From a virus: DNA of 54,913 bases. Position numbers and translations under genes: made by a program. This document shows positions 2,836 through 49,318 of this stretch, in pieces. The stretch covers positions 1-54,913 of the IMG/VR virus record IMGVR_UViG_3300025131_000048. One strand, given 5' to 3'. Each line of letters starts with the position of its first letter. The first letter of the stretch is position 1. Below the pieces are notes generated by a model. That model searched no databases. It saw only the letters and a list, made by a program, of their open reading frames with translations, and was not told where the DNA came from.

Positions 2836-2961
2836 ATGGAACTGTTGCCCGCTCTTGCATTTTTTACCGGTGCAGGTTATTTGGTATATCGTCTGGTCAA
2901 GCTAGACACAGAGATTAGCCGCCTTAAGGCTAAGATTGAGGATCTTAATGGCGAGGAATAA
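2836..2961 (+). CDS. Small membrane-anchored coiled-coil protein
   Basis: This 41-residue protein has a strong ribosome site (TTAGGAGATAGAT before ATG). It has one hydrophobic segment (LLPALAFFTGAGYLVYRLV) followed by a charged helix (DTEISRLKAKIEDLNGEE) with heptad spacing. It overlaps the RecA start by 14 bases, suggesting translational coupling. Function unknown. Confidence 0.6.
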   Translation: MELLPALAFFTGAGYLVYRLVKLDTEISRLKAKIEDLNGEE

Positions 2962-5049: not shown

Positions 5050-5436
5050 TTGAAAAAGACCAAGCGTTATATATCCCTCGCCAAGAAAATTGCAGAACAG
5101 TCAGACTATGGAAAGTTTAGGCATGGTGCGGTTCTGGTTAGAGGAAGTTCAGTTCGAAATATGGCATGCAATAAGTATCGTCATTGTCATTTTGGAAAAA
5201 GGTTCCGCGAAGCCAACACTGGCAACGCCACACTTCACGCCGAACTGGGGGTTATCCTAGGAATGGATCGTTCAGTCACACAGGGGGCGACAGTATATAC
5301 TGCGCGTGTAAATAAAGAAGGATCGGCCCGAATGAGTAAGCCATGCCCCATGTGTGAGAACGCAATGCGACACGTGGGAATAAAAAGAGTTGTATATACC
5401 GACAGAAGTGGTAGAATAGAGACGATGACCCTATGA
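5050..5436 (+). CDS. Zinc-dependent cytidine/deoxycytidylate deaminase family protein
   Basis: A 128-residue deaminase-fold protein with the catalytic HAE (in TLHAELG) and the zinc pair PCPMC, the hallmark of dCMP/cytidine deaminases. The expected role is dCMP to dUMP for the dTTP supply, alongside dUTPase and ribonucleotide reductase in this window. Free base or tRNA deaminase activity cannot be excluded. Start is TTG 5050 with GGAG at 5041-5044. It follows a strong promoter and overlaps the exonuclease start by 4 bases. Confidence 0.75.
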   Translation: MKKTKRYISLAKKIAEQSDYGKFRHGAVLVRGSSVRNMACNKYRHCHFGKRFREANTGNATLHAELGVILGMDRSVTQGATVYTARVNKEGSARMSKPCPMCENAMRHVGIKRVVYTDRSGRIETMTL

Positions 5437-6401
5437 AAAGACTGATGATAGTAGATGCCCTCAATATGTATTTTAGGGCTTATATAGTAGATCCGAGTTT
5501 GTCTACAAACGGACACCCGATAGGCGGCGTCAAAGGATTTATGAAGATACTGCAAAAGCTTTCTCGGGATCTTAAGCCCGACCTTATAGCTATGTGCTGG
5601 GATGGCCCCGGAGGTTCTAACAAGAGAAGGCAGATAGTCAAAGAATATAAGGAGGGCCGAAAGCCCATCCGCCTCAATCGAGACACAGACTTGTCTGAGA
5701 ACGAGGAGCTAGAGAACAAAATATGGCAACAGACGAGGGCCATAGAGTACGTTAATCAGCTACCGGTCCCCCAGTTTATGTTTCCAGAAGTGGAGGCAGA
5801 CGACGTGATCGCTTACATAGCACACTCACCACAGTTTAAGGGATGGCAAAAAATTATAGTCTCCAGTGATAAAGACTTTTTGCAGCTCTGCGACGAGGAA
5901 ACAGTTTTATTCCGACCCATCCAAAAGAAAGTTCATAATCGCAACAACGTAATAGAAGACTTCGGCATCCACCCTCTCAACTTTGCGTTGGCCCGAGCCA
6001 TCGCCGGAGATAAGTCTGACAACCTCAAGGGTGTTCCCGGAGCGGGACTCCCCACGGTTCAAAAAAGATTGCCATTTTTATCTGAGGCAAAAGAGTACTC
6101 AATTCAAGAGGTTATGGATTATTGCGAGAATATCGACAGCAAGGTCCTATTTTTTGACCGCGTAACGGATCACAAAAGCCTAATTATAAGGAACTACAAG
6201 TTGATGCAATTGTATGATCCCACCCTTTCGCTTCAAGGCAGAAAAAAAATAGATCATGTTTTTGAAAATCTTGGATATGAATTTAATAAGACACAAGTAA
6301 TAAAAATGATGAATGAAGACGGGTTTGGGGTGTATAATTGGGGTGATTTATTTGCCGTCATGAATCGTATTTCTGTTGACAAAGCACTTAAAGTAAGATA
6401 G
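5433..6401 (+). CDS. 5'-3' exonuclease / flap endonuclease (RNase H-like)
   Basis: A 322-residue nuclease of the PolA N-terminal/T4 RNase H family that removes RNA primers and flaps. Visible metal-site motifs are MIVDALNMYFRAY at the N-terminus, AMCWDGPGG, the EADDVIAY helix, SSDKDFLQL, and AIAGDKSDNLKGVPGAG (the H3TH DNA-binding region). As a separate protein it complements a family A polymerase and forms an operon with the deaminase before it and the helicase after it. Confidence 0.9.
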   Translation: MKRLMIVDALNMYFRAYIVDPSLSTNGHPIGGVKGFMKILQKLSRDLKPDLIAMCWDGPGGSNKRRQIVKEYKEGRKPIRLNRDTDLSENEELENKIWQQTRAIEYVNQLPVPQFMFPEVEADDVIAYIAHSPQFKGWQKIIVSSDKDFLQLCDEETVLFRPIQKKVHNRNNVIEDFGIHPLNFALARAIAGDKSDNLKGVPGAGLPTVQKRLPFLSEAKEYSIQEVMDYCENIDSKVLFFDRVTDHKSLIIRNYKLMQLYDPTLSLQGRKKIDHVFENLGYEFNKTQVIKMMNEDGFGVYNWGDLFAVMNRISVDKALKVR

Positions 6402-7786: not shown

Positions 7787-7789
7787 TTG

Positions 7790-12623: not shown

Positions 12624-13514
12624 GTGAAGCAAGCGCAACAGAATCCACACTCATTTCATTTGGCCGGGATCATTCCTGTTGCCGCATCTACATCTGAATT
12701 CAATTTGCCGGGGCACGATGTGCTTATGCCTATAGCTCCCAATTATAGTCTTATAGAAAGAGCTGTTGCAGAGTGTTCTTATGCCGGCTGCGAATCAATT
12801 TGGATAGTGTGTAATGACGACATTGCCCCACTCCTTAAGCATCGGCTCGGAGAGTACGTAGAAGATTTAATAAGTGTGGAGAAGGGCGCCTTCGTGCGGT
12901 TTCCTTCCGAGGTGCGCAACACCATTCCAATTTACTATGTACCGATTCATCCGAAACATCGGGATAAGATAGATTGTTATGCTTGGTCCATTTTACATGG
13001 AGCCAATGTGGCCTACTGGATCTGCCGTAGACTTTCTCGATGGTTCATCCCTGATAGATATTATGTAGCTTTCCCCTTCGGGATATATAATCCTCACCAG
13101 GCAAAGGCGGCAAGAAAATTAATAGCATCCAAGAAGCCCTTTTATTTTTCTTATGAAGAGAAAACTGTTCGTGATGGAATTCCCCTCGGATTTACTTTTG
13201 ATGCTAACGAATGGAAACGAGCCCGAGACGTTATTAAATCTAACTCAAAAACCTACTACCCGCCTCTGGAGGGAGAGCAGATGCCAAGCAAAAGATTGCC
13301 TGCTGAAGAAAGACTTAAATCTAGGCATTATAATCTTCACGATGTATTTAACGAGGCGTCCCTAGTGGAGGCACAAATAAGTGAACTAGATTGGTTTTAT
13401 GACTTGACAAAGTGGGAAGAATATTGTAAACTATTAACATCTGGACATCATGAAGACCTGAAGCGGCCATACGGCTTTACGACGGGTCACCTACACGAAG
13501 GGGAAGAAGAATGA
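12624..13514 (+). CDS. Nucleotidyltransferase-like protein
   Basis: A 296-residue protein. AGIIPVA, then GHDVLMPIAPNYSLIERAVAECSYAGCESIWIVCNDD, resembles the opening of nucleotide-sugar pyrophosphorylases (GT-A fold: a nucleotide loop, then a helix, then IWIV). The usual G-x-G-T-R loop is not evident, so activity is uncertain. It could act with the cupin and phosphomannomutase genes downstream. It overlaps the DnaE start by four bases. Confidence 0.5.
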   Translation: MKQAQQNPHSFHLAGIIPVAASTSEFNLPGHDVLMPIAPNYSLIERAVAECSYAGCESIWIVCNDDIAPLLKHRLGEYVEDLISVEKGAFVRFPSEVRNTIPIYYVPIHPKHRDKIDCYAWSILHGANVAYWICRRLSRWFIPDRYYVAFPFGIYNPHQAKAARKLIASKKPFYFSYEEKTVRDGIPLGFTFDANEWKRARDVIKSNSKTYYPPLEGEQMPSKRLPAEERLKSRHYNLHDVFNEASLVEAQISELDWFYDLTKWEEYCKLLTSGHHEDLKRPYGFTTGHLHEGEEE

Positions 13515-16500
13515 AAGATACGCGAGACAAGAGAGCAACATCATCAATCCCGTTTGTGGGATTACACGCTCATAGCGTAGCTGGTTCAATTTTTGATGCC
13601 ATAGGCTATCCTCCCGAACATATGGATTTTGCATATCAGAATGGATCTGATGCTCTAGCTCTCACTGACCATGGAAATATGAATGGGTTTAGTTATCAGC
13701 TTCTGCACTGGAAAAAGATGAAGGCGGAGGGCAAAAAGTTTAAAGCCGTTTTTGGAGTGGAAGCTTACTTCCTCCCCAGCCTAAAAGAGTGGAGAGAAGA
13801 GTATAACAAAGCAAAAGAGGATGCCAAGCTAGCCAGAAAGCTAGCCAAAGAAGAGGCCTCTGGGGCCACGGTCGAAGATGAGGGCGAGAGTAAGAAGGCG
13901 CAAGAAGTCTTAAAAAGGCGCCGTCACCTAATCCTCCTGGCGCAGAATCAAACCGGCCTAAATAATATCTTTAAAATAATCTCTGCAAGCTACAAAGCAG
14001 AAAACTACTATCGCTATCCTCGCGTTGATTATGAAATGCTAGAGAAGTATAGCGAAGGGGTCATCGCCGCATCGGCGTGTCTGGGTGGCGTATATGCTGG
14101 TAATTATTGGGAAAATCGAGAAGAGGGCCCCGAAGCCATCTTAGATGCAATGCGCGAAACCACTCGGCAGATGATAAAGATCTTTGGCGCCCGTTGGCAC
14201 GGAGAATTGCAATGGAACGGAATAGACGAACAGCACGAACTCAATCAGTATATTATTAAAATGCACGAGGAGTTCGGGATCCCCCTAATATCAACCGCTG
14301 ATAGTCATTACCCTAACCCAGACGCGTGGAAAGATAGAGAACTATACACACGCCTAGGCTGGCTTGGTAAAGGGGGACTCCCAGAATATATATCTTCGGA
14401 GCTGCCGATAGGTGTTGAAGACATAGGCTATGAGCTTTATCCCAAGAATGGCGATCAGGTGTGGGAGAGCTACAAGAAATATTCAGATTTAAACCAACAA
14501 GAGTACGATGATGATGTGGTGCTTGACTCAATCACCAGAACTCATGCCATCGCTCACGAATTGATTGAAGATTTTGAGCCCAACATCGAAGTAAAGCTGC
14601 CAGATTTTGTTGTACCAAAGGGGGCTACTGCCACTGGCGCATTGACCCAATTGGCAATAGATGGACTAAGATCAAAGGATCTACACAAAGACCAAGACTA
14701 TGTTGATCGCCTAAAGATGGAGCTGAAAGTTATTAGTGACCGAGGATTTAGTAAATATTTCTTAACGATGAAAGCGATTGTCGACAAGGCTAACGCATGT
14801 CAGCTTACAGGCCCTGGCCGCGGCTCCGCGGCAGGCTCCCTTGCGGCCTATGTTTTGAACATTACACAGATAGATCCTATCAAACACGGGCTGCTGTTCG
14901 AAAGGTTTTTACGCCGAGATGCAACAGACTACCCCGACATAGATTATGATGTAGCTGAGCCAATGGAGCTTAAAGAAATGTTGGCAGAAGAATGGGGGCA
15001 CAACACGGTGGTTCCCATTTCTAACTGGAACACATTACAACTACGTTCGTTGATCAAAGATATTTCAAAATTTTATGAAATTCCGTTTATTGAAGCAAAC
15101 AAAGTTACAGGCGTGATGATTAGAGAAGCAACTCCCGATGCCAAGCGTAAGAATGGTATTCGAGCCGGAGTGTATAATCCCACATGGGAAGAAGTAATGG
15201 AATTTAGTCCCTCCCTTAGAGGATTCTTACTAAAATATCCTCAGATTAAGCCTCACGTTGAGGCGTTGGTGGGCCAAGTTAGGTCTTGTTCTCGTCATGC
15301 CGGCGGCGTTTTGATCGCGGACGACTTAGATAAGCATATGCCTTTAATTAACTCGGGAGGAATACGACAAGCCCCTTGGGCCGAGGGACAGAACGTTCGT
15401 CACTTAGAGCCACTCGGGTTTATTAAATTTGATCTTCTCGGGCTATCGACATTGCGCATGATCGACGGCGCCGTCAGACATATTCTGCGCAGGCATCAAG
15501 GAATAGAAAATCCAAGCTTTGAGCAGGTACAACAGTTCTATAATGAAAATCTTCACCCAGATGTAATAGATTTTAATAATGCGGAAGTGTACGAGAACAT
15601 ATTTCATAAAGGAAACTGGGCCGGAGTATTTCAATTCACAGAGGAAAAGGCACAGCAGTTTTGTCAGCGCGCCACACCTCAAAGCTTAATTGATATATCC
15701 GCCATTACTTCTATTTATCGACCGGGACCTCTGGCCGCGAATGTACACGAACAATACATAGCTGCAAAAAATGACCCCGAAGAGGTGTACTATCTTAATG
15801 ACATAGTGAAGGACGTCACGGAAGAAAGTTACGGGTTCTTAATTTTTCAGGAGCAGATAGCTCTCTTGGCCCACAAGCTTGGGAAAGACCTCTCCCTGGA
15901 TGAAGGGAACCTTCTCCGCAAGGTTTTAACAAAGCGTGGGACAGGAAAGGGCGCCCAGACGAAAGAAAAGCTCTACACCAAGTTTATTGCCGGATGTGTT
16001 GAAAAGGGCATTAATAAGTTTAAGGCCGAGGACCTGTGGAAAACGTTTGAATATTTCTCAGGCTACGGTTTTAATAAGTCTCATGCTGTTTCTTATTCGG
16101 CAATTTCATTTCAGTGTGCGTGGCTTCTTAACTATTATCCCTCTGAGTGGATGGCAGCATTCCTCGACAAAGAGCCTGAGGCTCGCAAAGAGAAGGCCAT
16201 TAACATTGCCAAGAGCTACGGCTTTGCTATTCGGAAAGCTGATGTGAACAATTCTGGAGATGTATGGGAAATCAGCGACGACGACCCGATGATGCTCATT
16301 CAGCCTTTAAGCTCTATCAAGGGTTTGGGCGACAAAGCTATCGAGCAGATTTTAATGCATCGCCCCTTCGAAACCATCGAAGAGTTTATCTTTAATGACG
16401 AAATAGTTTATTCCAAACTGAACAAGAAAGCTCTAGATGTTTTGATTAGGTCTGGTACGGCCGATTGTTTAATGGACGAGAGGTTTACTGGTCGGAAACA

Positions 16501-16963
16501 TTTTTGGTCGGCTGTGGCCGTTGAAAGGCCCGCCAGCAAAAAGAAACTTAAAGAGCAAATAGAGTTGTATCAAGAAGAGGGAGACTTTACCGAGGAGGAA
16601 GAAATAGAAAATACTATCTCTTTGACAGGCATATTCCCTATGGATCTGGTTATAGACGAGACGGTCAGGAGTCGCCTGGACGAACTTTATGTCCCTCCGG
16701 TATCAGAATATGATCCAGACCTGGGTCTTGTGTGGTTTATTCCTCGCGAGATTGTTCAGAGGAACACCAAGAATGGAAAGCCGTATTGGATAGTTTCAGT
16801 GATTGATAGCAACTCGGCTTTAACAAAGATTAGGTGCTGGGGAGTCAACCCAGCCAGAGACAAGATTTTTATAAATCGCCCCTACATGGCTCGACTAGAT
16901 TATAGTGAAGAATGGGGCTTTTCAGCAAGAGCCATACGAAGGACAATGAAACTTTTAGGATAG
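13511..16963 (+). CDS. DNA polymerase III alpha subunit (DnaE-type, family C)
   Basis: A 1150-residue replicase. An N-terminal PHP domain reads GLHAHSVAGSIFDA and ALTDHGNMNG with metal-binding His and Asp. The palm has GRGSAAGSLAAYVLNITQIDP (about 436) and YPDIDYDV (about 475; two catalytic Asp), with the third at KFDLLGL (about 638). SRHAGGVLIA, YRPGPL and SYGFLIFQEQ follow, then helix-hairpin-helix and OB-like segments (about 930-1150). A fully formed polymerase C beside a family A polymerase is unusual for a phage. Confidence 0.92.
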   Translation: MKDTRDKRATSSIPFVGLHAHSVAGSIFDAIGYPPEHMDFAYQNGSDALALTDHGNMNGFSYQLLHWKKMKAEGKKFKAVFGVEAYFLPSLKEWREEYNKAKEDAKLARKLAKEEASGATVEDEGESKKAQEVLKRRRHLILLAQNQTGLNNIFKIISASYKAENYYRYPRVDYEMLEKYSEGVIAASACLGGVYAGNYWENREEGPEAILDAMRETTRQMIKIFGARWHGELQWNGIDEQHELNQYIIKMHEEFGIPLISTADSHYPNPDAWKDRELYTRLGWLGKGGLPEYISSELPIGVEDIGYELYPKNGDQVWESYKKYSDLNQQEYDDDVVLDSITRTHAIAHELIEDFEPNIEVKLPDFVVPKGATATGALTQLAIDGLRSKDLHKDQDYVDRLKMELKVISDRGFSKYFLTMKAIVDKANACQLTGPGRGSAAGSLAAYVLNITQIDPIKHGLLFERFLRRDATDYPDIDYDVAEPMELKEMLAEEWGHNTVVPISNWNTLQLRSLIKDISKFYEIPFIEANKVTGVMIREATPDAKRKNGIRAGVYNPTWEEVMEFSPSLRGFLLKYPQIKPHVEALVGQVRSCSRHAGGVLIADDLDKHMPLINSGGIRQAPWAEGQNVRHLEPLGFIKFDLLGLSTLRMIDGAVRHILRRHQGIENPSFEQVQQFYNENLHPDVIDFNNAEVYENIFHKGNWAGVFQFTEEKAQQFCQRATPQSLIDISAITSIYRPGPLAANVHEQYIAAKNDPEEVYYLNDIVKDVTEESYGFLIFQEQIALLAHKLGKDLSLDEGNLLRKVLTKRGTGKGAQTKEKLYTKFIAGCVEKGINKFKAEDLWKTFEYFSGYGFNKSHAVSYSAISFQCAWLLNYYPSEWMAAFLDKEPEARKEKAINIAKSYGFAIRKADVNNSGDVWEISDDDPMMLIQPLSSIKGLGDKAIEQILMHRPFETIEEFIFNDEIVYSKLNKKALDVLIRSGTADCLMDERFTGRKHFWSAVAVERPASKKKLKEQIELYQEEGDFTEEEEIENTISLTGIFPMDLVIDETVRSRLDELYVPPVSEYDPDLGLVWFIPREIVQRNTKNGKPYWIVSVIDSNSALTKIRCWGVNPARDKIFINRPYMARLDYSEEWGFSARAIRRTMKLLG

Positions 16964-16972
16964 GAGATAAAG

Positions 16973-18007
16973 ATGTCTAATGTAAATAGAAAAAAAGAGG
17001 AAGCGTCGACAATGATTGCGGATATAGTGCTCGGATTAAGTTACGGCGACGAGGGGAAGGGAAAGGTTACCCACCACCTCTTAAAAAGTGGAGACTATAC
17101 TCACTGCTTGCGTTTCAATGGGGGATGTAATGCTGGTCATACCATTTACCACGAGGGTAAGAAATTTGTCACCCACCATATTCCCGCGGGAGTTTTTTTT
17201 GGAGTGAAATCAATTATTGGCCCTGGGTGTGTAGTAAACTTAGATCAGTTCTTTAAAGAATTGAACGAACTTAAAGAGGGCGGCATAGACGTTGAAGATA
17301 AAGTTTTTATTGCCCAAAATGCTCATATTATCACAAGTCGGCATATGGCTGAAGATAGAAATGATTATCAAATAGGGACGACCAAGCAAGGAAATGGGCC
17401 GGCTTATAGAGACAAGTACAGTCGACAAGGTGAGCGCGCCGGAACTGTAAAGGTCTTGGAAGATTATATAATAGATATTTTTACTGAGTTCCATGAAAAT
17501 GAAGAAACTGTTGTTCTTTGCGAGGGCGCCCAAGGTTTTGGTCTTGACATTGATTGGGGCGACTATCCCTTTGTTACGTCAAGCCACTGCACCGCTGCTG
17601 GTGCGCTCTTGAATGGGATCCCGCCCCAAGCGGTGCGGAAAGTATATGGGATTGCAAAAGCCTACGACACCTATGTGGGAGCTAAAGCTTTCCACGGGAA
17701 AGGAAGAGAGTATGATTTGATGCAATCGGTAGGGAAGGAATTTGGCGCCACCACAGGGCGCCCCCGACAGTGTAACTGGTTAGATATGAAGAGTCTAGGG
17801 AAGGCTATTAAAGTAAATGGTGTGACGGATGTGATTATCAACAAGGTGGACGTTTTAAGAGAGATGGGGCTGTGGCGACTACGCTATTCTACCGATGACA
17901 GAATTAATATGACCTTCGGAAATGAACAAAGCTGGAAGCAGTATATTAAAAAGTTTTTGCCTGAGAGTTTAACAATTCAATTTTCAGATAGCCCCGAAAG
18001 GATTTAA
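16973..18007 (+). CDS. PurZ/PurA-like adenylosuccinate synthetase
   Basis: A 344-residue enzyme of the adenylosuccinate synthetase family, about 90 residues shorter than bacterial PurA and in the size range of phage PurZ. It has the P-loop YGDEGKGK (25-31), NAGHTIYHEGKKFVTHHIP, the core EGAQGFGLDID, and the aspartate-binding ATTGRPRQCNWLD. PurA makes succino-AMP from IMP; PurZ makes succino-2-amino-dAMP from dGMP. Classical PurZ replaces the catalytic Asp of GDEGKG, which is kept here, so it is either a hybrid-type PurZ or a shortened PurA. GGAG precedes ATG 16973; ATG 17012 is an alternative. Confidence 0.85.
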   Translation: MSNVNRKKEEASTMIADIVLGLSYGDEGKGKVTHHLLKSGDYTHCLRFNGGCNAGHTIYHEGKKFVTHHIPAGVFFGVKSIIGPGCVVNLDQFFKELNELKEGGIDVEDKVFIAQNAHIITSRHMAEDRNDYQIGTTKQGNGPAYRDKYSRQGERAGTVKVLEDYIIDIFTEFHENEETVVLCEGAQGFGLDIDWGDYPFVTSSHCTAAGALLNGIPPQAVRKVYGIAKAYDTYVGAKAFHGKGREYDLMQSVGKEFGATTGRPRQCNWLDMKSLGKAIKVNGVTDVIINKVDVLREMGLWRLRYSTDDRINMTFGNEQSWKQYIKKFLPESLTIQFSDSPERI

Positions 18008-24402: not shown

Positions 24403-25974
24403 ATGCCTACATGCAAATTTGAGAATCGACGCGTTCTCACTGATAAACTTTTAAACGGAGTAAACAAACTAGCAGACAACGTTGCAACAACGTTGGGCCC
24501 AAAAGGTAGAAATGTAATATTACAAGAAAAGGGTAAGGAACCCTTCGTTACCAAAGATGGGGTGACGGTAGCAACCTTTGTGCATCTAGAAGATGAATTC
24601 GAAAATGCGGCCGCACAAATTCTTAAGCAGGCCGCTTCCCAGACAAATATAGATGCCGGCGACGGCACGAGCACCGCAACGGTTTTAGCGCGAGAAATAT
24701 TTGTGCAAGCACAAAAATATTTATCAGCGGGAATTTCCCCAATCGAACTAAAACGCGGGATCGACAAGACCGTAGAACAGATTGTAGAAAACTTAGATAA
24801 GATTGCTCAGCCGGTTACGAGTCTTGACGACATTGAAAATATTGCCACCATTTCGGCCAACAACGATCCAGTTATAGGAAAGCTCATAGCGACCGCTATT
24901 GATAAAGCCGGCGCCGATGGAGCAATAACCATTGAGGAGGCTCGCTCTTTAGAAACCTCACTAGATATGTTAGAGGGATTCCGGATGCCGTCTGGCTACG
25001 CGGCCGGGGCATTTGTCACCGACGAACGCCGCGGCGCTGTCAAGTATGAAGCACCATTGCTGTTAGTAACTGACGCCAGGATTGATTCAGTGGAGCAGAT
25101 TCTTCCCATTCTGGAAATCGTAGCACGGGATGGGCGCCCATTGGTAATTATTGCCGAAGAGATAGAAGGGCAAGCGTTAGCAGCCCTAATTATGAACACG
25201 GTGCGAGGGACGATGAAGATTGCAGCCGTGAAAGCTCCCTTTTATGGAGAAGCCAGAAAGAGTATTTTAGAAGATCTGGCTGTTTCTACTGGTGCTGCAT
25301 TTATATCAAGAGAATCAGTCACCCCTCTCAGAGAAGCTACATTGGTAGACTTTGGACAATGTAAGTCGATTGACATAACAAATGCTCTTACTACTATCGT
25401 GGGCGGCAAAGGAGATTTTGAAGCAATCGATAAACGGATTGAGTTCCTTAAACAACAGGTTTCTAACACCGAGAGTATAAGTGAATGTGAAGTGATTCAA
25501 CGAAGAATTAGCCGGCTGGCCAGCGGGATCGCCGTCATTCGAGTAGGCGGCGCAACCGAGGTGGAAATGACCGAAAAGAAACATCGTGTAGAGGACGCCC
25601 TGGAGGCTGTTAAGGCCGCCCAAGAGGGGGGAATAGTGCCGGGAGGCGGAGTTGCGCTTGTTCGGGCACTAGAGGGCCTCGTCGTAGACAATTTAGAAGA
25701 TAACGAGGCCCTGGGGGCCGAAATAGTGAAAAAAGCTGCGGGAGCGCCCTTGCGACAGATGACAACCAATGCGGGAGAATCTGCCGATATAGTACAAAAT
25801 AGGGTTGAACGCGCCGACCTTCACGATGGATATGATTTCAGAAGTGGGGAGATGGTAGATATGTATGCAGCTGGAATTATTGATCCCCTCAAGGTGACCA
25901 AGAGCGCGCTCCAAAATGCTGCCTCTGCGGCCGGCACTTTAATCACCACTTCTCATGGAATTATAGAAATTTAA
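24403..25974 (+). CDS. groEL: Chaperonin GroEL (Hsp60)
   Basis: A 523-residue full-length chaperonin. LGPKGRNVIL, KDGVTVA, GDGTSTATVLA (86-94; catalytic Asp) and a late PGGGVALVRAL glycine motif are all present; the C-terminal Gly-Gly-Met tail is missing. It would fold capsid or polymerase proteins, with the phage GroES encoded at 10213. Full GroEL genes are rare in phages. It has its own promoter and stands alone rather than in a groESL operon. Confidence 0.95.
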   Translation: MPTCKFENRRVLTDKLLNGVNKLADNVATTLGPKGRNVILQEKGKEPFVTKDGVTVATFVHLEDEFENAAAQILKQAASQTNIDAGDGTSTATVLAREIFVQAQKYLSAGISPIELKRGIDKTVEQIVENLDKIAQPVTSLDDIENIATISANNDPVIGKLIATAIDKAGADGAITIEEARSLETSLDMLEGFRMPSGYAAGAFVTDERRGAVKYEAPLLLVTDARIDSVEQILPILEIVARDGRPLVIIAEEIEGQALAALIMNTVRGTMKIAAVKAPFYGEARKSILEDLAVSTGAAFISRESVTPLREATLVDFGQCKSIDITNALTTIVGGKGDFEAIDKRIEFLKQQVSNTESISECEVIQRRISRLASGIAVIRVGGATEVEMTEKKHRVEDALEAVKAAQEGGIVPGGGVALVRALEGLVVDNLEDNEALGAEIVKKAAGAPLRQMTTNAGESADIVQNRVERADLHDGYDFRSGEMVDMYAAGIIDPLKVTKSALQNAASAAGTLITTSHGIIEI

Positions 25975-37585: not shown

Positions 37586-37661
37586 GGACCCATAGCTCAA
37601 CTGGCAGAGCACTGGACTTTTAATCCATTGGTTGTAGGTTCAAGTCCTACTGGGTTCACCA
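37586..37661 (+). tRNA. tRNA-Lys (UUU)
   Basis: A 76-base cloverleaf: acceptor GGACCCA pairs with TGGGTTC (one G-U), discriminator A and encoded CCA. The anticodon loop CTTTTAA gives UUU. GGTTCAAGTCC forms the T arm. Confidence 0.93.
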
Positions 37662-37676
37662 ATCAAACAGTTTCAC

Positions 37677-37763
37677 GGCGCGGTGGTGGAATCGGTATAC
37701 ACAGCAGACTCAAAATCTGCCGCCAACTATGGCTTGCGAGTTCGAGTCTCGCCCGCGCTACCA
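37677..37763 (+). tRNA. tRNA-Leu (CAA)
   Basis: An 87-base class II tRNA with a long variable arm. Acceptor GGCGCGG pairs with CCGCGCT (one G-U), with CCA encoded. The anticodon stem GCAGA/TCTGC encloses CTCAAAA, giving CAA for UUG codons. It lies 15 bases after tRNA-Lys. Confidence 0.92.
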
Positions 37764-37779
37764 ACTTAGGAAAAATATT

Positions 37780-38064
37780 ATGAGTGTAATGGGACCAGAC
37801 GGAAAAATTGGAATTGCGGGAGGCGGCTGGTGGTCGCCCTACGGCGACACCGACGAAGAAATCCAAGAGAATATGAAAACCGGACAGATGCCGAACGCGC
37901 CCGACGCCTTCCGTGCCTCTCCATTCTCTGGGGCCACTGAAAAAAAGAACGAGGATCTCCAGGATTTTCTTGGGAGCATTGGCGCTCTGGGCGGTCCCGC
38001 GAAAGAAGAATACGAGAAGAGAAAAAAGAAGCACCGAGGCCGAAGCAGGCGACGAGGCCGATAA
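37780..38064 (+). CDS. Small Gly/charged protein between tRNAs
   Basis: A 94-residue protein: VMGPDGKIGIAGGGWWSPYGDTDEE, then an acidic middle and a strongly basic end (RKKKHRGRSRRRGR). ATG 37780 lies 16 bases after the tRNA-Leu CCA. The basic tail suggests nucleic acid binding. No family recognised. Confidence 0.55.
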   Translation: MSVMGPDGKIGIAGGGWWSPYGDTDEEIQENMKTGQMPNAPDAFRASPFSGATEKKNEDLQDFLGSIGALGGPAKEEYEKRKKKHRGRSRRRGR

Positions 38065-38132
38065 AAGAGAGAAGAGTTAGACGATGCTTATGAACCTAAG
38101 AGAATACTCAGAAATGACCTACACCCCTGCGC

Positions 38133-38209
38133 GGGGCAGTAACTCAGTAGGTCAGAGTAGCGTTCTTATAAAGCGCCGGTCGCGGGTTCAAGTCCCGCCT
38201 GCCCTACCA
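38133..38209 (+). tRNA. tRNA-Ile (UAU)
   Basis: A 77-base cloverleaf: acceptor GGGGCAG pairs with CTGCCCT (one G-U), with CCA encoded. The anticodon stem GCGTT/AGCGC (one U-G) encloses CTTATAA, giving UAU for AUA codons, which are usually rare in bacterial hosts. Confidence 0.92.
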
Positions 38210-38382: not shown

Positions 38383-38605
38383 AATAGGAGATCTGGTGCG
38401 CCGAGCGAAGGAGCCCGATGGCCGACGTTTCAAAGAAGGTTTTGGAATTGTGGTGAAAACACTCAGGCAAAAAGAAGGATGGGACGAGCCCACTGTTGAA
38501 GTAGATTGGGGCGACGGGTATGTGTTGAGCGCCCCTCTTCGCTGGATTGAAAAATGTAGTTCCATTCCGAAGAGGAGGATAGAATATGCGAGTCAAGCTG
38601 AATAA
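38375..38605 (+). CDS. GDLV-family protein
   Basis: A 76-residue member: MYEIGDLVRRAKEPDGRRFKEGFGIVVKTL, then PTVEVDWGDGYVLSAPLRWIEKCS. It has a longer C-terminal tail than most. Confidence 0.65.
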   Translation: MYEIGDLVRRAKEPDGRRFKEGFGIVVKTLRQKEGWDEPTVEVDWGDGYVLSAPLRWIEKCSSIPKRRIEYASQAE

Positions 38606-38927
38606 AAAAGTAATTTGTGCCGATGGATTTAGCGTGTCGGTCCAGGCGAACGAGGGGGCGTATTGTACTCCTCGTCAGGACAGTGCCGAGCAATATACGG
38701 AAGTGGAACTTGGCTTTCCTTCCGCACCCGAAGAACTTATTATGGACTGGATAGAATCTTATGGAGATCCTCCCCCCGACCCTACCGGGGCAGTTTATCC
38801 CTACGTTCCGGTATCTGTGGTCACGAATGTAATTGCAAAGCACGGTGGGATTGTTTCTGGAGAAGTACCACCGGGCATCCCGAGACTGGAGGCAATAAGT
38901 GGAAAATTTAAAATTCCAAGCGGGTGA
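38586..38927 (+). CDS. Conserved marine-phage protein
   Basis: A 113-residue protein: MRVKLNKKVICADGFSVSVQANEGAYCTPR, YTEVELGFPSAPEELI, PTGAVYPYVPVSVV, and KHGGIVSGE. I recognise it as a recurrent marine-phage hypothetical but know no function. Its end is nested in the next gene for 29 bases. Confidence 0.6.
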   Translation: MRVKLNKKVICADGFSVSVQANEGAYCTPRQDSAEQYTEVELGFPSAPEELIMDWIESYGDPPPDPTGAVYPYVPVSVVTNVIAKHGGIVSGEVPPGIPRLEAISGKFKIPSG

Positions 38928-39386: not shown

Positions 39387-39584
39387 ATGATGAAGATTGG
39401 CGACCTCGTGAAGCTCTCAACCCCCGACAGTGACGACGGGAAGGTGGGGCTATTGCTCCACCAAATCCGCCCGAGGGACCGCGACGAAGTGACTGCATAT
39501 GGAGTACAAATTCTTGGTGAAATAGAAGTCCGCGATTATCTTACATGGGAAGTGGGGATTGTAAAAAATGTTCCAACCCGGTGA
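39387..39584 (+). CDS. GDLV-family protein
   Basis: A 65-residue member: MMKIGDLVKLSTPDSDDGKVGLLLHQIRP, then TAYGVQILGEIEV, then WEVGIVKNVPTR. The final PTR and stop are read from the bases that begin the next protein (overlap 17). Confidence 0.65.
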   Translation: MMKIGDLVKLSTPDSDDGKVGLLLHQIRPRDRDEVTAYGVQILGEIEVRDYLTWEVGIVKNVPTR

Positions 39585-39765
39585 TTTGATAAGGTACGGA
39601 GCGGCCCTGGGCATCTTGCTGCGAAAGCTCCAGTGGGATGAATTTGAACAAGAAGATTACCTTAATTGGGACGGAGAGCCCGCGTGGTGGATTCAGTATA
39701 CGAAGCTACCAAACCGCGTGTGGAACTACGAAGAAGAACTAACTCTGGTATCGAAAGGAAATTAG
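39568..39765 (+). CDS. GDLV-family protein, nested start
   Basis: A 65-residue member: MFQPGDLIRYGAALGILLRKLQWDEF, then WWIQYTKLPN, then EELTLVSKGN. Pro replaces the usual residue before Gly-Asp, giving CCCGGTGAT, whose CGG TGA supplies the upstream Arg and stop. Confidence 0.65.
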   Translation: MFQPGDLIRYGAALGILLRKLQWDEFEQEDYLNWDGEPAWWIQYTKLPNRVWNYEEELTLVSKGN

Positions 39766-40233: not shown

Positions 40234-40432
40234 GAACTGCCGCAAGAAAGCAAAACGACAGTTCAAAATTATTGAACCGGGCATCGTATATAAAATGAAT
40301 AACACCGACACCGAGGACGAGCGCATAGGAACTTTTTGTACAGCAGCTTGTGCAAAATCATTTGCAGCCTGGATGTACGGGCCGGGACTATCTAAAATGC
40401 CGAAGGGCTGGAAGGTTGAGGAAATTAAATGA
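40223..40432 (+). CDS. Small zinc-binding protein
   Basis: A 69-residue protein: PCENCRKK at the start and FCTAACAKSFAAWM later, giving a C-x2-C and C-x3-C pair as in small treble-clef fingers (MYM/FCS-like). Overlaps both neighbours (11 and 4 bases). Confidence 0.55.
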   Translation: MPCENCRKKAKRQFKIIEPGIVYKMNNTDTEDERIGTFCTAACAKSFAAWMYGPGLSKMPKGWKVEEIK

Positions 40433-40620
40433 AAATCGGTGACTTGGTAAGATCGCGGATCGGAAAACACGGTGTGGGAATCATAATAGATACTTATTGG
40501 AACAACGCCAATGGAGACTACAGTGAAATGCGTGTTAGGTGGTTCTCTGAGTGGGCGAATAACAGCGGGTGCCCTTGGTTCCTCACTCGCGATCTGGAGA
40601 TACTCAGTGAAAATCGGTGA
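40429..40620 (+). CDS. GDLV-family protein
   Basis: A 63-residue member: MKIGDLVRSRIGKHGVGIIIDTYW, then EMRVRWFSEW, then DLEILSENR. The last four residues and stop are shared with the next start. Confidence 0.68.
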   Translation: MKIGDLVRSRIGKHGVGIIIDTYWNNANGDYSEMRVRWFSEWANNSGCPWFLTRDLEILSENR

Positions 40621-40825
40621 CTTGGTAAAATATATTGCGGACGAAGACTTCGACGCAGACTTCTACGGAGGGGATATGTTTGGTATCATCGAGGAATTGG
40701 AGTACTACGTCCCGAGCCTTAAATGCTACGAGAAAATTTGGGTTCGATGGCTCGCCAGCGCCAATTTACAGTGGGCAGACTCAGACCACTTGGAAATTGT
40801 CAGCGAAGTGAAAACTTTTATTTGA
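40607..40825 (+). CDS. GDLV-family protein, nested start, cluster end
   Basis: A 72-residue member: MKIGDLVKYIADEDFDADFYGGDMFGIIEELEYY, then KIWVRWLASANLQW, then LEIVSEVKTFI. GTG 40607 lies 14 bases before the upstream stop ends. The terminal VKTFI comes from fusion to the next AT-rich dyad at the shared bases GTGAAAA. Confidence 0.66.
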   Translation: MKIGDLVKYIADEDFDADFYGGDMFGIIEELEYYVPSLKCYEKIWVRWLASANLQWADSDHLEIVSEVKTFI

Positions 40826-40871
40826 CAATAAAGTTTTGGCCCTTGACTCTCGGCCCCTTCTGGGCTATACT
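40811..40871 (+). promoter_or_regulatory. Promoter cassette 2
   Basis: Dyad arms AAAACTTTTAT and ATAAAGTTTT (40811-40836), TTGACT (40843-40848), 17 bp, TATACT (40866-40871), nine bases, ATG 40881. Confidence 0.75.
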
Positions 40872-40880
40872 GTAAGTACG

Positions 40881-41060
40881 ATGAAGGCTGGCGATTTGGT
40901 AAAGACTACAGGATTTGGCCCCGAGGGCACAACCGACGAGCTTGGCGTGATTGTCAAAGCCGACCCGAGATTCCAGAGAGTTTTTATTGTTTATTTTAAC
41001 AGCGGCGTGCGAATCCCATACGCCGCAGACGGCCTGGTGGTTGTAAATGAAAATCGGTGA
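40881..41060 (+). CDS. GDLV-family protein, cassette head
   Basis: A 59-residue member: MKAGDLVKTTGFGPEGTTDELGVIVKADP, then VFIVYFNSGVRIPYAA, then GLVVVNENR. The ENR end and stop are nested in the next start (14 bases). Confidence 0.67.
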   Translation: MKAGDLVKTTGFGPEGTTDELGVIVKADPRFQRVFIVYFNSGVRIPYAADGLVVVNENR

Positions 41061-41280
41061 CTTGGTAAAGTGGGGCGGTTTGCACTCTCGAAACGAGGGC
41101 TGGTCCGGCGAACGCTCCGACACAGGAATCATTGTGGACGGACCCCGCGACGAAGAGGCAAGAGAGGGTTCCGATGACGAAGACTCCCCCGCGACTTCTT
41201 ACGCTGTTGCGTGGTTCGACGCAAAAACAACATTCTGGCACCTCGATTTCAATTTGGAGTTACTCAGTGAAAATCGGTGA
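41047..41280 (+). CDS. GDLV-family protein, nested start
   Basis: A 77-residue member with an acidic loop insert: MKIGDLVKWGGLHS, then TGIIVDGPRDEEARE, then SYAVAWFDAKTTFW and LELLSENR. Overlaps both neighbours by 14 bases. Confidence 0.67.
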   Translation: MKIGDLVKWGGLHSRNEGWSGERSDTGIIVDGPRDEEAREGSDDEDSPATSYAVAWFDAKTTFWHLDFNLELLSENR

Positions 41281-41482
41281 CTTGGTAAAGGTAACCCCAG
41301 CCCCAAAGTGGGATATGAACCCCGAAGATCACACCCATATTGGTGTTGTAACTAAACTGGCTCATTCCTTCGACGGATACACAGAGCAGATTGCTCTCCT
41401 TAGTTTTGGGGACCATAATGGAATCTTTCGCACAAACGACTGGAGATTTGAGATTCTCAGTCAAGTAAAAACTTTTATTTGA
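41267..41482 (+). CDS. GDLV-family protein, nested start, cluster end
   Basis: A 71-residue member: MKIGDLVKVTPAPKW, then HIGVVTKLAHSFDGY, then IALLSFGD, then FEILSQVKTFI. Like 40607 it ends by running into the dyad of the next cassette. Confidence 0.66.
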   Translation: MKIGDLVKVTPAPKWDMNPEDHTHIGVVTKLAHSFDGYTEQIALLSFGDHNGIFRTNDWRFEILSQVKTFI

Positions 41483-41528
41483 CAATAAAGTTTTGCTTCT
41501 TGACTCCGCGCCTGGACCCTGCTATACT
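41468..41528 (+). promoter_or_regulatory. Promoter cassette 3
   Basis: The same dyad as cassette 2, TTGACT (41500-41505), 17 bp, TATACT (41523-41528), nine bases, ATG 41538. Confidence 0.75.
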
Positions 41529-41537
41529 ATAAGTACG

Positions 41538-41738
41538 ATGAAGGTTGGCGATTTAGTAACGATGGACACCCCACTCACACCCGAGAGGCATGAAGTGGGG
41601 ATTATTCAGAAGATAGTTCAGTCTCGACGTTTCGCTGGAACCCGAGCTTGGACCTCGCCGGTCTATCACATTCGCTGGCCCGATGGGGGAATCAGCAATC
41701 AGTACGATAATGAAATCGTCCTAGTTTCAGAGGCTTAG
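41538..41738 (+). CDS. GDLV-family protein, cassette head
   Basis: A 66-residue member: MKVGDLVTMDTPLTPERHEVGIIQKIVQ, then VYHIRWPDGGISN, then EIVLVSEA. It is followed two bases later by an unrelated conserved gene. Confidence 0.66.
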   Translation: MKVGDLVTMDTPLTPERHEVGIIQKIVQSRRFAGTRAWTSPVYHIRWPDGGISNQYDNEIVLVSEA

Positions 41739-41740
41739 AT

Positions 41741-42121
41741 ATGGGCTATCGCTCGCAAGTAGTTTTGGCAATCGCCAAAGAAATTCAGCCACACTTCATG
41801 GCTGCTCTGTCGGTTTGCAACGCAGCGACCGTCCTCGTTTTTAATGACGCCGACCGTTTCGACAGAGATTATTATCAGGACGGCACCGGGCACTGGCTCA
41901 TTCATTGGGATTCAATCAAGTGGTACGATTCCTACGAGGAAATTGGTACTATTGAAAAGTTTGTGGATGCTGCGAATGATGACTGCATTGAACTTGGCGA
42001 AGACGAGGGAGACTCCAGCGACTATATTAAATTTGTGCGCGTGGGGGAGGAAACGGGCGATATTGAGCGCCGAGGCTTCGGTTTTGATGATATTCATGCC
42101 TCCACCTCAATTAGCTTCTAA
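41741..42121 (+). CDS. Conserved phage protein (GYRSQV type)
   Basis: A 126-residue protein: MGYRSQVVLAIAKEIQPHFMAAL, then WDSIKWYDSYEEIGTIEKF, then FVRVGEETGDIERRG. This family is common in marine and other phages; its function is unknown. The layout suggests a small alpha/beta domain. Confidence 0.65.
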   Translation: MGYRSQVVLAIAKEIQPHFMAALSVCNAATVLVFNDADRFDRDYYQDGTGHWLIHWDSIKWYDSYEEIGTIEKFVDAANDDCIELGEDEGDSSDYIKFVRVGEETGDIERRGFGFDDIHASTSISF

Positions 42122-42122
42122 A

Positions 42123-42170
42123 AAGTATTTCAAATAAAAGATTGACTTTCCTACAAAAAATGGTTATACT
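42123..42170 (+). promoter_or_regulatory. Promoter cassette 4 (second dyad type)
   Basis: AAGTATTTCAAATAAAAGA replaces the first dyad. TTGACT (42142-42147), 17 bp, TATACT (42165-42170), six bases, ATG 42177. The AT-rich box recurs nearly exactly at 42974, 44880 and 46140. Confidence 0.72.
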
Positions 42171-42176
42171 ATAGGC

Positions 42177-42413
42177 ATGATGATGAATACAAACACAGAC
42201 ATTCTTGGTTTTGAATCCGACGCGCTACAGCGGTTCACCGAAGCCCGACGACAAGGACAATCTCTACCTCCCGAGGTAGAATCGCTCTTTGATTCGATTG
42301 GGATTTGGTGGGATGAAATCTCGCAAGAATACTTTAGCATGCAGCAGGTTTATACTGATTCGATTAGCGACTTGCTGGCGACTCATGGACCCGAGCCCGA
42401 GCCGGAAAATTAA
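42177..42413 (+). CDS. Small acidic protein
   Basis: A 78-residue protein, helical, with Trp-rich IGIWWDEISQEYF and an acidic end (GPEPEPEN). Leaderless by position. No family recognised. Confidence 0.5.
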   Translation: MMMNTNTDILGFESDALQRFTEARRQGQSLPPEVESLFDSIGIWWDEISQEYFSMQQVYTDSISDLLATHGPEPEPEN

Positions 42414-42414
42414 G

Positions 42415-42666
42415 ATGGGTCGTAGACTTTACAAGGTTGGTGCCCTCGTTGAAGCTCGAAATACAAAGTACGAGCGCGGCAAGGGAATCATTCTGGCCGG
42501 CCCCCACGGCGTAAAAAACTATTGGAACGACAATATTATCGAAAACTTTACCGTTCACTGGTTTGACCGTCCCGGCATCATCGACCGCTGGGAATGGAAC
42601 AGAGAGAGCACCCGCAACTTTAAAATGACAAAGAATCAAATTAAAATTCTTAGGGCGTCTGGCTAA
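42415..42666 (+). CDS. GDLV-like protein, basic variant
   Basis: An 83-residue member: RLYKVGALVEARNTKYERGKGIILAGPHG, then FTVHWFDRPGIIDRW, then NQIKILRASG. It has more Arg/Lys than its relatives and a long central loop. Confidence 0.58.
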   Translation: MGRRLYKVGALVEARNTKYERGKGIILAGPHGVKNYWNDNIIENFTVHWFDRPGIIDRWEWNRESTRNFKMTKNQIKILRASG

Positions 42667-42989
42667 TGACAAAGAAACTTCCTGTTATCTCCACGCACCC
42701 ACCTGTTATTCACAGGTCGATTGTGAGCGGCAAGCGTTATGCTATTGGTGGCGAGTGGGTGGAGATTCCCGAGGATGTTACGAGGGACACGCTGCACAAG
42801 TGGATGGTTTGGCGGCAAGATATGCCCAAACCAAAATCCCCGTTGCCGATGGAATGGACCGTCCCCGGCTCTGGAAATCGCCGCTACGTCGTTTCCTTTG
42901 TCGAGGGTCGATGGTCCTGTGAGTGTCAGGGATTTAAATTCCGTCGCGACTGCAAACACATCGAGAACCAAAAAAAGTATTTCAAATAA
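42666..42989 (+). CDS. SWIM zinc-finger protein
   Basis: A 107-residue protein. Its C-terminal RYVVSFVEGRWSCECQGF with RDCKH gives the C-x-C-x(n)-C-x-H pattern of SWIM fingers, which bind DNA or proteins. The N-terminal half (SGKRYAIGGEWVEIPEDV, then MPKPKSPLPMEW) is not recognised. Its final codons (KKYFK) come from the AT-rich box of the next cassette. Confidence 0.7.
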   Translation: MTKKLPVISTHPPVIHRSIVSGKRYAIGGEWVEIPEDVTRDTLHKWMVWRQDMPKPKSPLPMEWTVPGSGNRRYVVSFVEGRWSCECQGFKFRRDCKHIENQKKYFK

Positions 42990-43022
42990 AAGATTGACTC
43001 TCGCCCGGTTCTGGGCTATACT
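42974..43022 (+). promoter_or_regulatory. Promoter cassette 5
   Basis: AAGTATTTCAAATAAAAGA, TTGACT (42994-42999), 17 bp, TATACT (43017-43022), six bases, ATG 43029. Confidence 0.72.
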
Positions 43023-43028
43023 GTAAGT

Positions 43029-43241
43029 ATGATGAAGGCAGGCGATCTGGTGAGCTTCAACGCTCCCGATGATAAATTCCACGGTTCCAAGGGCTTGATT
43101 GTCCGGTGCGTGGAAAGCAATATATATCAGCAGGGTCGCCACTACGAAGTTCAAACATTTTGTGGGCATACTATCGTCGCCCTCGATTTTGAACTAGAAC
43201 CACTTGAGAACAAAGTAAGTATCCCGAGGCCTCGACAATGA
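43029..43241 (+). CDS. GDLV-family protein, cassette head
   Basis: A 70-residue member: MMKAGDLVSFNAPDDKFHGSKGLIVRCVESN, then YEVQTFCGHTIVALDFELEPLENK. It ends CAATGA, giving a four-base overlap with the next gene. Confidence 0.65.
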   Translation: MMKAGDLVSFNAPDDKFHGSKGLIVRCVESNIYQQGRHYEVQTFCGHTIVALDFELEPLENKVSIPRPRQ

Positions 43242-43423
43242 TTATTGGTGATTTGGTAAAGTACCGGAACACAGGTTTTAGGTCTTGGCTTGGAATTATA
43301 ATCAAGGAAGTGCCCGGTAGTGCAGAATACAAAACGGTGCAGTGGCTAAACACTGACGACGGAAGTCAGGCTAGAGTCACCCACAAACCAGGGGAGTTGT
43401 TCAAACTAAATGAAAATCGGTGA
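43238..43423 (+). CDS. GDLV-family protein
   Basis: A 61-residue member: MIIGDLVKYRNTGFRSWLGIIIKEVPGS, then YKTVQWLNTDDG, then LFKLNENR, the last residues shared with the next start. Confidence 0.66.
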   Translation: MIIGDLVKYRNTGFRSWLGIIIKEVPGSAEYKTVQWLNTDDGSQARVTHKPGELFKLNENR

Positions 43424-43580
43424 CTTGGTAATGCGTACTTATGGTGAAGGCCGACGACCAGTGGCAATCCTTGTGGGTTGGCGTTGGGAAGGTGCGGTGG
43501 TCCAAGTAAGATGGTTGGGCAGCGACGAGACAGAAGAAATCGGTTCTCAATATGTGGAGTTGGCATATGAAGCCCGGTGA
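43410..43580 (+). CDS. GDLV-family protein, nested start and end
   Basis: A 56-residue member: MKIGDLVMRTYGEGRRPVAILVGWRWEGAVVQVRWLG, then QYVELAYEAR. Both ends overlap neighbours by 14 bases: its start supplies the previous ENR and stop, and its EAR and stop lie in the next start. Confidence 0.62.
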   Translation: MKIGDLVMRTYGEGRRPVAILVGWRWEGAVVQVRWLGSDETEEIGSQYVELAYEAR

Positions 43581-43764
43581 TTTGGTAAAATTTGATTGGA
43601 AGAATACGCCCGCTGGGAGAGGTCCCGATGAAATGGGAATTTGTTTGAAGGTTAGTCAACCAAATCCACTAGAGAAGCCCATCGCAAAAGTGCATTGGTT
43701 CTCGATGAAGCACCCACTTCAGCATTTGACTGAAGTTTTGGAGGTTGTAAGTGAAAATCGGTGA
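43567..43764 (+). CDS. GDLV-family protein, nested start and end
   Basis: A 65-residue member: MKPGDLVKFDWKNTPAGRGPDEMGICLKVSQ, then AKVHWFSMKHPLQHL, then LEVVSENR. Nested with both neighbours (14 bases each). Confidence 0.67.
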   Translation: MKPGDLVKFDWKNTPAGRGPDEMGICLKVSQPNPLEKPIAKVHWFSMKHPLQHLTEVLEVVSENR

Positions 43765-43966
43765 TTTGGTAAGATTTAATGACTCGCCTGACGAACGCGA
43801 CCCCTGCGGGCGGCCTAGCCGCGTAGGTTGCCGTTCTCCCGAGTTGGGAATCATTACAAAAACTGACCCAGGCATGCCTAAACGCTGTCATGTTGAATGG
43901 TTCAGTTGTGACAACCGAGGTTGGTGGAGCTACAAGAATCTGGAGGTTGTAAGTGAAAATCGGTGA
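43751..43966 (+). CDS. GDLV-family protein, nested start and end
   Basis: A 71-residue member: MKIGDLVRFNDSPDERD, then SPELGIITKTDPG, then CHVEWFSCDNRGWW, then LEVVSENR. GTG start. Shares 14 bases with each neighbour. Confidence 0.67.
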   Translation: MKIGDLVRFNDSPDERDPCGRPSRVGCRSPELGIITKTDPGMPKRCHVEWFSCDNRGWWSYKNLEVVSENR

Positions 43967-44159
43967 TTTGGTAAGATTTACAGCCGAAAGCTGGGGGACT
44001 CCGCTGGAGGACCGCCCGCTCGGCATTGTGGTTAAAGAACCCTACACTCCCGAAGTCCGCGCCCACCCCGTTGTGGTTGACATTCGGTTCCCCGGCGACA
44101 CCGGGATTTACTCAATTACCCCCAACGACCTGGAGCTTCTCAGTGGCACAAGAAACTAA
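43953..44159 (+). CDS. GDLV-family protein, cluster end
   Basis: A 68-residue member: MKIGDLVRFTAESWG, then LGIVVKEPYTPE, then VVVDIRFPGDTGIYSI, then LELLSGTRN. It begins in the upstream stop (14 bases) and is last of a five-gene nested run from 43238. Confidence 0.67.
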   Translation: MKIGDLVRFTAESWGTPLEDRPLGIVVKEPYTPEVRAHPVVVDIRFPGDTGIYSITPNDLELLSGTRN

Positions 44160-48942: not shown

Positions 48943-49131
48943 ATGATGAAGGTTGGCGATTTGGTAAAATACTCTGCCCCGCGAGGGCGCAGCACATGGC
49001 TGAAAGGTATCGGAGTGGTGACAGAAACCAACCTGGACCGGCCAGCCCATGTGAGAGTTAGCTTTCCCAATGTTGGAGTCCACGCATGGATGTTCAAAGA
49101 AACTTTGGAGGTTCTCAATGAAACCCGGTGA
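48943..49131 (+). CDS. GDLV-family protein, cassette head
   Basis: A 62-residue member: MMKVGDLVKYSAPRGRSTWLKGIGVVTETN, then HVRVSFPNVGVHAWM, then LEVLNETR. The ETR and stop lie in the next start. Confidence 0.66.
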   Translation: MMKVGDLVKYSAPRGRSTWLKGIGVVTETNLDRPAHVRVSFPNVGVHAWMFKETLEVLNETR

Positions 49132-49318
49132 TTTAGTTGTATGGACGGAGTATGCCGCAGGTTGGTCTAACGGACCCAAAGCGGGCGAGTACGCGGGCAC
49201 AGTTGTTCGCGTCATTCCTCCGACCCGCCGCAAACGCAGCCGCGCTAAGATTGAAATCTTGGCCGAAGAAACTTTCATTGTCGGACGAAGATTTATTGAG
49301 GTTGTCAGTGGAGTCTGA
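49118..49318 (+). CDS. GDLV-family protein, nested start
   Basis: A 66-residue member: MKPGDLVVWTEYAAGWSNG, then EYAGTVVRVIPPTRRKRSRAKIEIL, then RFIEVVSGV. The RRKRSR loop is unusually basic. Overlaps 14 bases upstream, 11 downstream. Confidence 0.65.
   Translation: MKPGDLVVWTEYAAGWSNGPKAGEYAGTVVRVIPPTRRKRSRAKIEILAEETFIVGRRFIEVVSGV

Follow-up and report, generated by a model that had tools for sequence, protein, structure and literature searches.

How can the same bases close one gene and open another, again and again along one array, and what is such an arrangement for? The question is raised by a 54,913-nucleotide (nt) IMG/VR fragment of viral DNA (record IMGVR_UViG_3300025131_000048), here called the window, which at ≈36–50 kb carries more than 20 small genes whose products start with M-K-x-G-D-L-V or close to that. 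A sequence-only reading had listed ten starts in this array at which the upstream stop codon TGA lies inside the GGTGAY (Gly-Asp) codons of the next gene. These starts and junctions exist, the upstream frame is open in each, and the TGA falls inside GGTGAY at 10 of the 10 junctions. Very probably, the overlap serves as a dual-coded joint for the exchange of cassettes, each a single gene for a member of a family of small SH3-like proteins; cassette exchange at the overlap was not part of the sequence-only reading.

The overlap measures 14 nt at eight of the ten junctions, 17 nt at 39568 and 29 nt at 38899. The description of the junctions as leading from paralogue to paralogue holds for nine of the ten upstream genes and fails for 38586–38927, before 38899, which is not a paralogue. 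The C-termini produced at the joints are SENR (four times), NENR (twice), YEAR, NETR, VPTR and IPSG.

38899–38927, plus strand: 29-nt variant joint; the upstream gene, 38586–38927, is the non-paralogue
39568–39584, plus strand: 17-nt variant joint, 39387–39584 with 39568–39765; the start lies one codon earlier (M-F-Q-P-G-D)
40607–40620, plus strand: 14-nt joint, S-E-N-R-stop of 40429–40620 with the start GTG AAA ATC GGT GAC of 40607–40825
41047–41060, plus strand: 14-nt joint, 40881–41060 with 41047–41280
41267–41280, plus strand: 14-nt joint, 41047–41280 with 41267–41482
43410–43423, plus strand: 14-nt joint, 43238–43423 with 43410–43580
43567–43580, plus strand: 14-nt joint, 43410–43580 with 43567–43764
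43751–43764, plus strand: 14-nt joint, 43567–43764 with 43751–43966
43953–43966, plus strand: 14-nt joint, 43751–43966 with 43953–44159
49118–49131, plus strand: 14-nt joint, 48943–49131 with 49118–49318

The connector pattern, RTGAARRYYGGYGAYYTRGTNA, is matched 19 times in the window at up to two mismatches, compared to 0.01 times in shuffled sequence. Three IMG/VR pattern scans and one GTDB genome scan, together with the window, gave at least 242 related loci with at least 1,377 members, mostly from IMG/VR; the counts of junctions, codons and C-termini in this set are counts among the matches listed. Nested paralogue pairs were present on 138 of 182 contigs, and the longest run comprised 13 genes. 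The 299 adjacent paralogue junctions of the first sample included 240 of 14 nt, 31 of 4 nt and 9 of 1 nt, and all 240 of the 14-nt class had GGT in this GGT-biased sample; the second IMG/VR scan put no condition on the Gly codon, and of its 305 exact matches, 174 were nested. Recent tandem duplication was rejected as the source of the identical junctions, since only 11 within-locus pairs reach an E-value of 1e-8, mostly at 34–50% identity. The arrays belong to a group of tailed viruses, nearly all of them uncultured; the T4-like major capsid protein gp23 (PF07068) is encoded in 13 of 20 array-bearing records and is absent from the window, which is a fragment. In GTDB genomes, the connector pattern was found at four places, all in metagenome-assembled genomes (MAGs); the matches include a WOR-3 chromosome, and two of the four MAGs carry a gp23 gene. 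No clear relative was found in cultured phages by blastn with two arrays or by tblastn with two members and the consensus.

Constraints of the overlap on both genes

The overlap leaves its mark on both reading frames. The fourth-last residue upstream depends on the first base of the start codon: it is Ser with GTG and Asn, Asp, Tyr or His with ATG, with two exceptions in 241 cases. GTG starts account for 55% of nested and 13% of un-nested members. The base before GGT is silent downstream (ATC/ATT, GTC/GTT) but picks Arg or Trp upstream, and T in this place, giving an upstream Trp, occurs in 1 of 174 nested versus 21 of 131 un-nested members. The consensus ahead of the RTG start, TGGAGGTNNTNA, places the Shine–Dalgarno sequence GGAGGT within upstream Leu-Glu-Val codons at normal start spacing; GAG encodes the Glu of this motif in 177 of 186 nested members, compared to 65 of 86 un-nested ones. 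The window offers an example of this 5' half of the connector:

40595–40606, plus strand: Shine–Dalgarno-like GGAG in the upstream Leu-Glu-Ile codons, at the usual spacing to GTG 40607

Outside the window, the commonest nested ending is SESR, because the next gene there begins MKVGD and not MKIGD. Where the joint has G-N or G-S instead of G-D, nested members retain a stop in the other frame (TAA or TAG; nine and eight cases, respectively). Identity dips at every third base on both sides of the joint, which indicates selection on both frames as proteins. RNA structure was rejected as a role of the joint, because the predicted folding of nested joints did not exceed that of shuffled sequence (z = 1.2 and 0.2).

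The glycine codon follows from the same geometry. All nested copies use GGT, because no other Gly codon yields the stop, and the seven promoter-proximal copies, or heads, that the sequence-only reading had set against them do use GGC, as does an eighth (start 36197 or 36203). As a mark of nesting, however, GGT fails, since un-nested GGT copies occur in the window at 36668, 37330, 40429 and 43238. Nor does the contrast between nested copies and heads extend to other viruses, in which GGT is common in un-nested copies (84/131, compared to a 33% baseline in long open reading frames). The converse rule, that GGC marks heads, was rejected as well, as promoter-proximal copies in other contigs carry either codon.

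The predicted model of the 40429–40620 product (predicted local distance difference test score 88, predicted template-modelling (TM) score 0.73) points to an SH3-like fold, a small five-strand barrel, in which LEILS (residues 56–60) is the last strand and the tail ENR has no secondary structure. The predicted fold would be like that of SH3-like small barrels (Tudor, chromo, PWWP, R67 DHFR, PetP and KOW), but has no significant single relative in the PDB: the best match in a fold search had an E-value of 0.045, with query TM-scores up to 0.72 among the top matches, and none reached E ≤ 0.001. Pfam and PHROGs scans with eight window members and an 83-member alignment gave no family, the matches being limited to single members.

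The model helps to divide the suggestion that the conserved C-terminus is a by-product of the overlap. This is right for the last three residues, E-x-R, but not for the preceding LE[VIL][VIL]S, which is found in un-nested members and forms the last strand of the predicted barrel; LE[VIL][VIL]S also carries the next gene's Shine–Dalgarno sequence. Where two orthologues of at least 65% identity differed in nesting, the nested partner ended in E-x-R/G in 86 of 93 cases, whereas E-x-R occurred in 0 of 19 partners with 4-nt or 1-nt junctions. The same gene ends in TIEVISESR in contig L103 and in TIEVIR in L054. Un-nested members that keep E-x-R are mostly at the locus edge or have the joint variants GGTAG, GGTAA or GGTGAA. 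Furthermore, unrelated upstream proteins gain E-x-R: a SWIM-like zinc-finger protein of contigs L037 and L090 has the C-terminus CKHVEAQKNESR, but the related protein of the window has ENQKKYFK at this place. The protein end is thus conserved, though not for the sake of the protein, which calls for caution in annotation and motif finding in overlapping genes.

Exchange of cassettes at the joint

The neighbours of a cassette change from array to array. In L054 and L103, the order of orthologous cassettes, some as much as 95% identical, is scrambled, yet 14-nt overlaps join nearly all of them; the order of shared cassettes between arrays spans Kendall tau values from 1 to −1. Among orthologues of at least 75% protein identity, the neighbour differed in 210 of 255 comparisons (82%) at nested junctions, compared to 34 of 87 (39%) at other junctions (odds ratio 7.3, p = 1.5e-13). 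When the comparison was confined to contig pairs having both kinds of junction, which holds divergence roughly constant, neighbours had changed at 102 of 137 nested and 24 of 73 other junctions (odds ratio 5.95, p = 9e-9). One family had 12 distinct predecessor families among its 13 nested cases.

The place of exchange was mapped by linkage, defined as identity above a locus-matched background by position relative to the start. In pairs sharing the upstream cassette only, the excess identity was ≈0.3–0.95 as far as the start codon, with the minimum at third codon positions; it was still 0.70 at +3 but fell to zero from +14 onwards. In pairs sharing the downstream cassette, it was near zero at most positions to +3, 0.57–0.92 at +4 to +8, and high thereafter. 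The switch of linkage from the upstream to the downstream cassette thus falls inside the overlap. One-cassette insertions or deletions (indels) were seen in 15 comparisons of A-B with A-X-B arrangements, all of them nested. In the indel between L103 and L242, the sequence matches the A side to +13 and then the B side, the best crossover being at +6 to +14, and for four of the five indels examined, the best-fitting crossover range extends into the overlap.

Interpretation, rival explanations and known systems

Beyond the exchange itself, we lean towards the view that the family's own ends are an evolved connector, and that phages rebuild operons by recombining within this dual-coded stretch, with every cassette providing the initiation site for whichever gene comes after it. 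Under the exchange reading, a cassette extends from about codon 3 of its own gene through the following start codon. The codons at its end (Leu-Glu-Val-x-Ser/Asn-Glu) supply a Shine–Dalgarno sequence and start codon to any follower, while its fourth and fifth codons (GGT GAY) supply a stop to any predecessor. With such signals at both ends, any two members recombined inside the common stretch form a correct stop and an in-frame start, and because the breakpoint lies inside the overlap, each cassette carries its follower's initiation site. The agent is probably homologous or annealing recombination in the ≈14–30 nt of shared sequence, and the follower would be translated either by local re-initiation at the joint or by direct use of the embedded Shine–Dalgarno sequence. 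Shuffling may persist for the variety that it brings to the small-protein repertoire, perhaps in the service of host takeover or counter-defence, roles for which the shuffled SH3-like proteins may be candidate factors; the joint is an easy signature for collecting many such small proteins. For one class of viruses, this would be a concrete answer at the sequence level to how single genes are swapped without breaking the operon: the joint is placed where both frames stay correct.

Several points weigh against this interpretation. The frequencies come from a sample partly chosen by pattern, and the cassette pairs are not independent, with family-level and contig-pair controls in agreement. For the indel between L220 and L103, the crossover fits best at −12 to −11, before the overlap begins. 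Nearly all contigs are from uncultured viruses, and the case is a computational one. Lastly, translational coupling declines as overlaps lengthen, with none at −25 nt (PMC12548453), so that efficient re-initiation across 14 nt is not certain.

Translational coupling alone, with the 14-nt overlap and its sequence conserved because they set the ratio of adjacent small proteins, and with the shuffling incidental, is a possible but doubtful explanation. It fits the embedded Shine–Dalgarno sequence and start codon at standard spacing, and overlaps generally serve coupling (PMC10666635, PMC12548453). However, within the same contig pairs, neighbours change far more at nested junctions than at the others, which means that no fixed partner ratio is maintained; moreover, 4 nt, the commonest coupling geometry, is in the minority here, and the joint lacks unusual RNA structure. 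We regard it as unlikely that the new neighbours arose without shuffling or insertion, by the loss of different members of a large ancestral array in each lineage. While some array pairs are indeed collinear (tau = 1.0 for L049/L055, L049/L239 and L204/L206), and the A-B versus A-X-B pairs could be deletions, many pairs are scrambled among same-strand orthologues, up to full reversal (tau = 0 for L054/L103 and −1 for L072/L224). Furthermore, if members were lost through recombination at the joint, the overlap would remain the recombination site.

Two further explanations would do away with the exchange or with the separate proteins. Because the connector is a short repeat and almost all contigs come from metagenome assembly, assemblers might have jumped between cassettes. 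Such an artefact is very improbable: the stretches of exact identity that joints of one locus share (median 7 nt, 95th percentile 22 nt, 31 nt reached in 0.2% of pairs) are short for assembler word lengths, and the same orders recur in independent contigs. The exchanged cassettes also mostly differ in protein between contigs, and have therefore evolved and are not re-wired copies. We give hardly any credence to programmed +1 frameshifting at the joint, which would make a tandem-domain polyprotein rather than separate small proteins. The downstream frame is +1 to the upstream one and the stop is TGAY, and the frameshift site of release factor 2 has a TGAY-type stop. Against this, the P-site Arg codon CGG re-pairs poorly at +1 (GGU), the Shine–Dalgarno sequence and start codon are at normal spacing, heads have their own start, and runs end in ordinary stops.

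Exchange at a dual-coded joint is related to several known arrangements. In lambdoid phages, short conserved sequences at gene boundaries were proposed to permit module exchange by homologous recombination (Clark et al. 2001, on phage HK620, as cited in PMC2327257 and PMC3029335). The likeness lies in a short conserved sequence at the border of exchanged modules. Unlike these boundary sequences, the joint sits in two coding frames, carries a Shine–Dalgarno sequence, start and stop, links one paralogous family in long same-strand runs and supplies C-terminal residues, and the breakpoints are mapped to the overlap. The PeSL elements of T4-type phages are promoter and stem-loop repeats between modules that have been tied to the shuffling of accessory genes (Arbiol et al. 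2010 and Comeau et al. 2014, as cited in PMC4503421). The arrays, too, have T4-like carriers, and the promoter repeats of the window look similar to PeSLs. The nested joint, in contrast, lies inside coding sequence and has no promoter, no stem-loop and no intergenic base; few joints have a −10-like match ahead, and the strong promoters of the window precede heads. Coupled gene pairs share with the joint a stop/start overlap on one mRNA and a Shine–Dalgarno sequence inside the upstream gene, but the enriched overlaps are 4, 1 and 8 nt according to a review (PMC12548453). An overlap of 14 nt is not commonly enriched, yet makes up 80% of the paralogue junctions in our first sample, and its partners are exchanged. 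Like integron cassettes, the array consists of rows of exchangeable one-gene units in a single orientation, but there is no attC or other intergenic recombination site, as nested genes overlap and leave no intergenic sequence. A literature search found no description of a dual-coded start/stop joint of this kind; the distinction from boundary sequences and PeSLs is drawn from their descriptions in citing papers.

Head modules and other features of the window

In the window, heads begin with a repeated 58-nt module, present at 39352, 39986, 40843, 41500, 42994, 44207 and 48908:

40843–40900, plus strand: head module of 58 nt, with a TTGACT-17-TATACT promoter, ATG 9 nt past the −10 element, and first codons with GGC

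Since the GGC start lies within this module, GGC appears to travel with the promoter in this window. Cassette genes of the stretch 40429–44159 include the following:

40429–40620, plus strand: cassette gene, 63 amino acids, SH3-like barrel by structure prediction
40607–40825, plus strand: cassette gene, last of its run, C-terminus VKTFI from the repeat ahead of the next promoter
40881–41060, plus strand: head cassette behind a promoter, Gly codon GGC
41047–41280, plus strand: cassette gene nested on both sides
41267–41482, plus strand: cassette gene, last of its run, C-terminus VKTFI
43029–43241, plus strand: head cassette, GGC, with an ATGA (4-nt) link to the next gene
43238–43423, plus strand: cassette with GGT though not nested upstream
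43410–43580, plus strand: cassette gene nested on both sides
43567–43764, plus strand: cassette gene nested on both sides
43751–43966, plus strand: cassette gene nested on both sides
43953–44159, plus strand: final cassette of the run

Strong sigma-70-like promoters were found at 39352, 39986, 40843, 41500, 42142, 42994, 44207 and 48908; their −10 elements end ≈6–9 nt before the ATG, and they would give almost leaderless mRNAs. Similar TATATTATATATATG heads occur in contigs L017, L022, L041 and L090. Two PeSL-like repeat families lie ahead of promoters, AACTTTTATTTGACAATAAAGTTTT at 40813, 41470, 44177, 47411, 48293, 48878 and 49520, and AAAAAGTATTTCAAATAAAAG at 42128, 42980, 44886, 46146 and 46492. 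Hairpins predicted in these repeats are weak or absent, and the folding of window promoter repeats relative to shuffles gave z-scores of −1.1, −1.5 and +0.8. The gene ahead also reads into the repeats and takes its ending from them (VKTFI, KKYFK), another instance, beside the joint, in which downstream sequence determines the C-terminus.

Genes for tRNA-Lys, tRNA-Leu and tRNA-Ile(tat) stand directly ahead of the array (37586–38209). The window also encodes a RecA-like protein (2936–4063), whose link to the exchange would be conjectural, a B12-dependent ribonucleotide reductase (7787–10204), a DnaE-type DNA polymerase III alpha subunit (13511–16963) and GroEL (24403–25974). A PurA/PurZ-like adenylosuccinate synthase is encoded at 16973–18007, with PurA models scoring above PurZ and both below cut-off. 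A DNA polymerase I-like protein is divided between separate genes, the polymerase part at 10–792 and the 5'–3' exonuclease part at 5433–6401.

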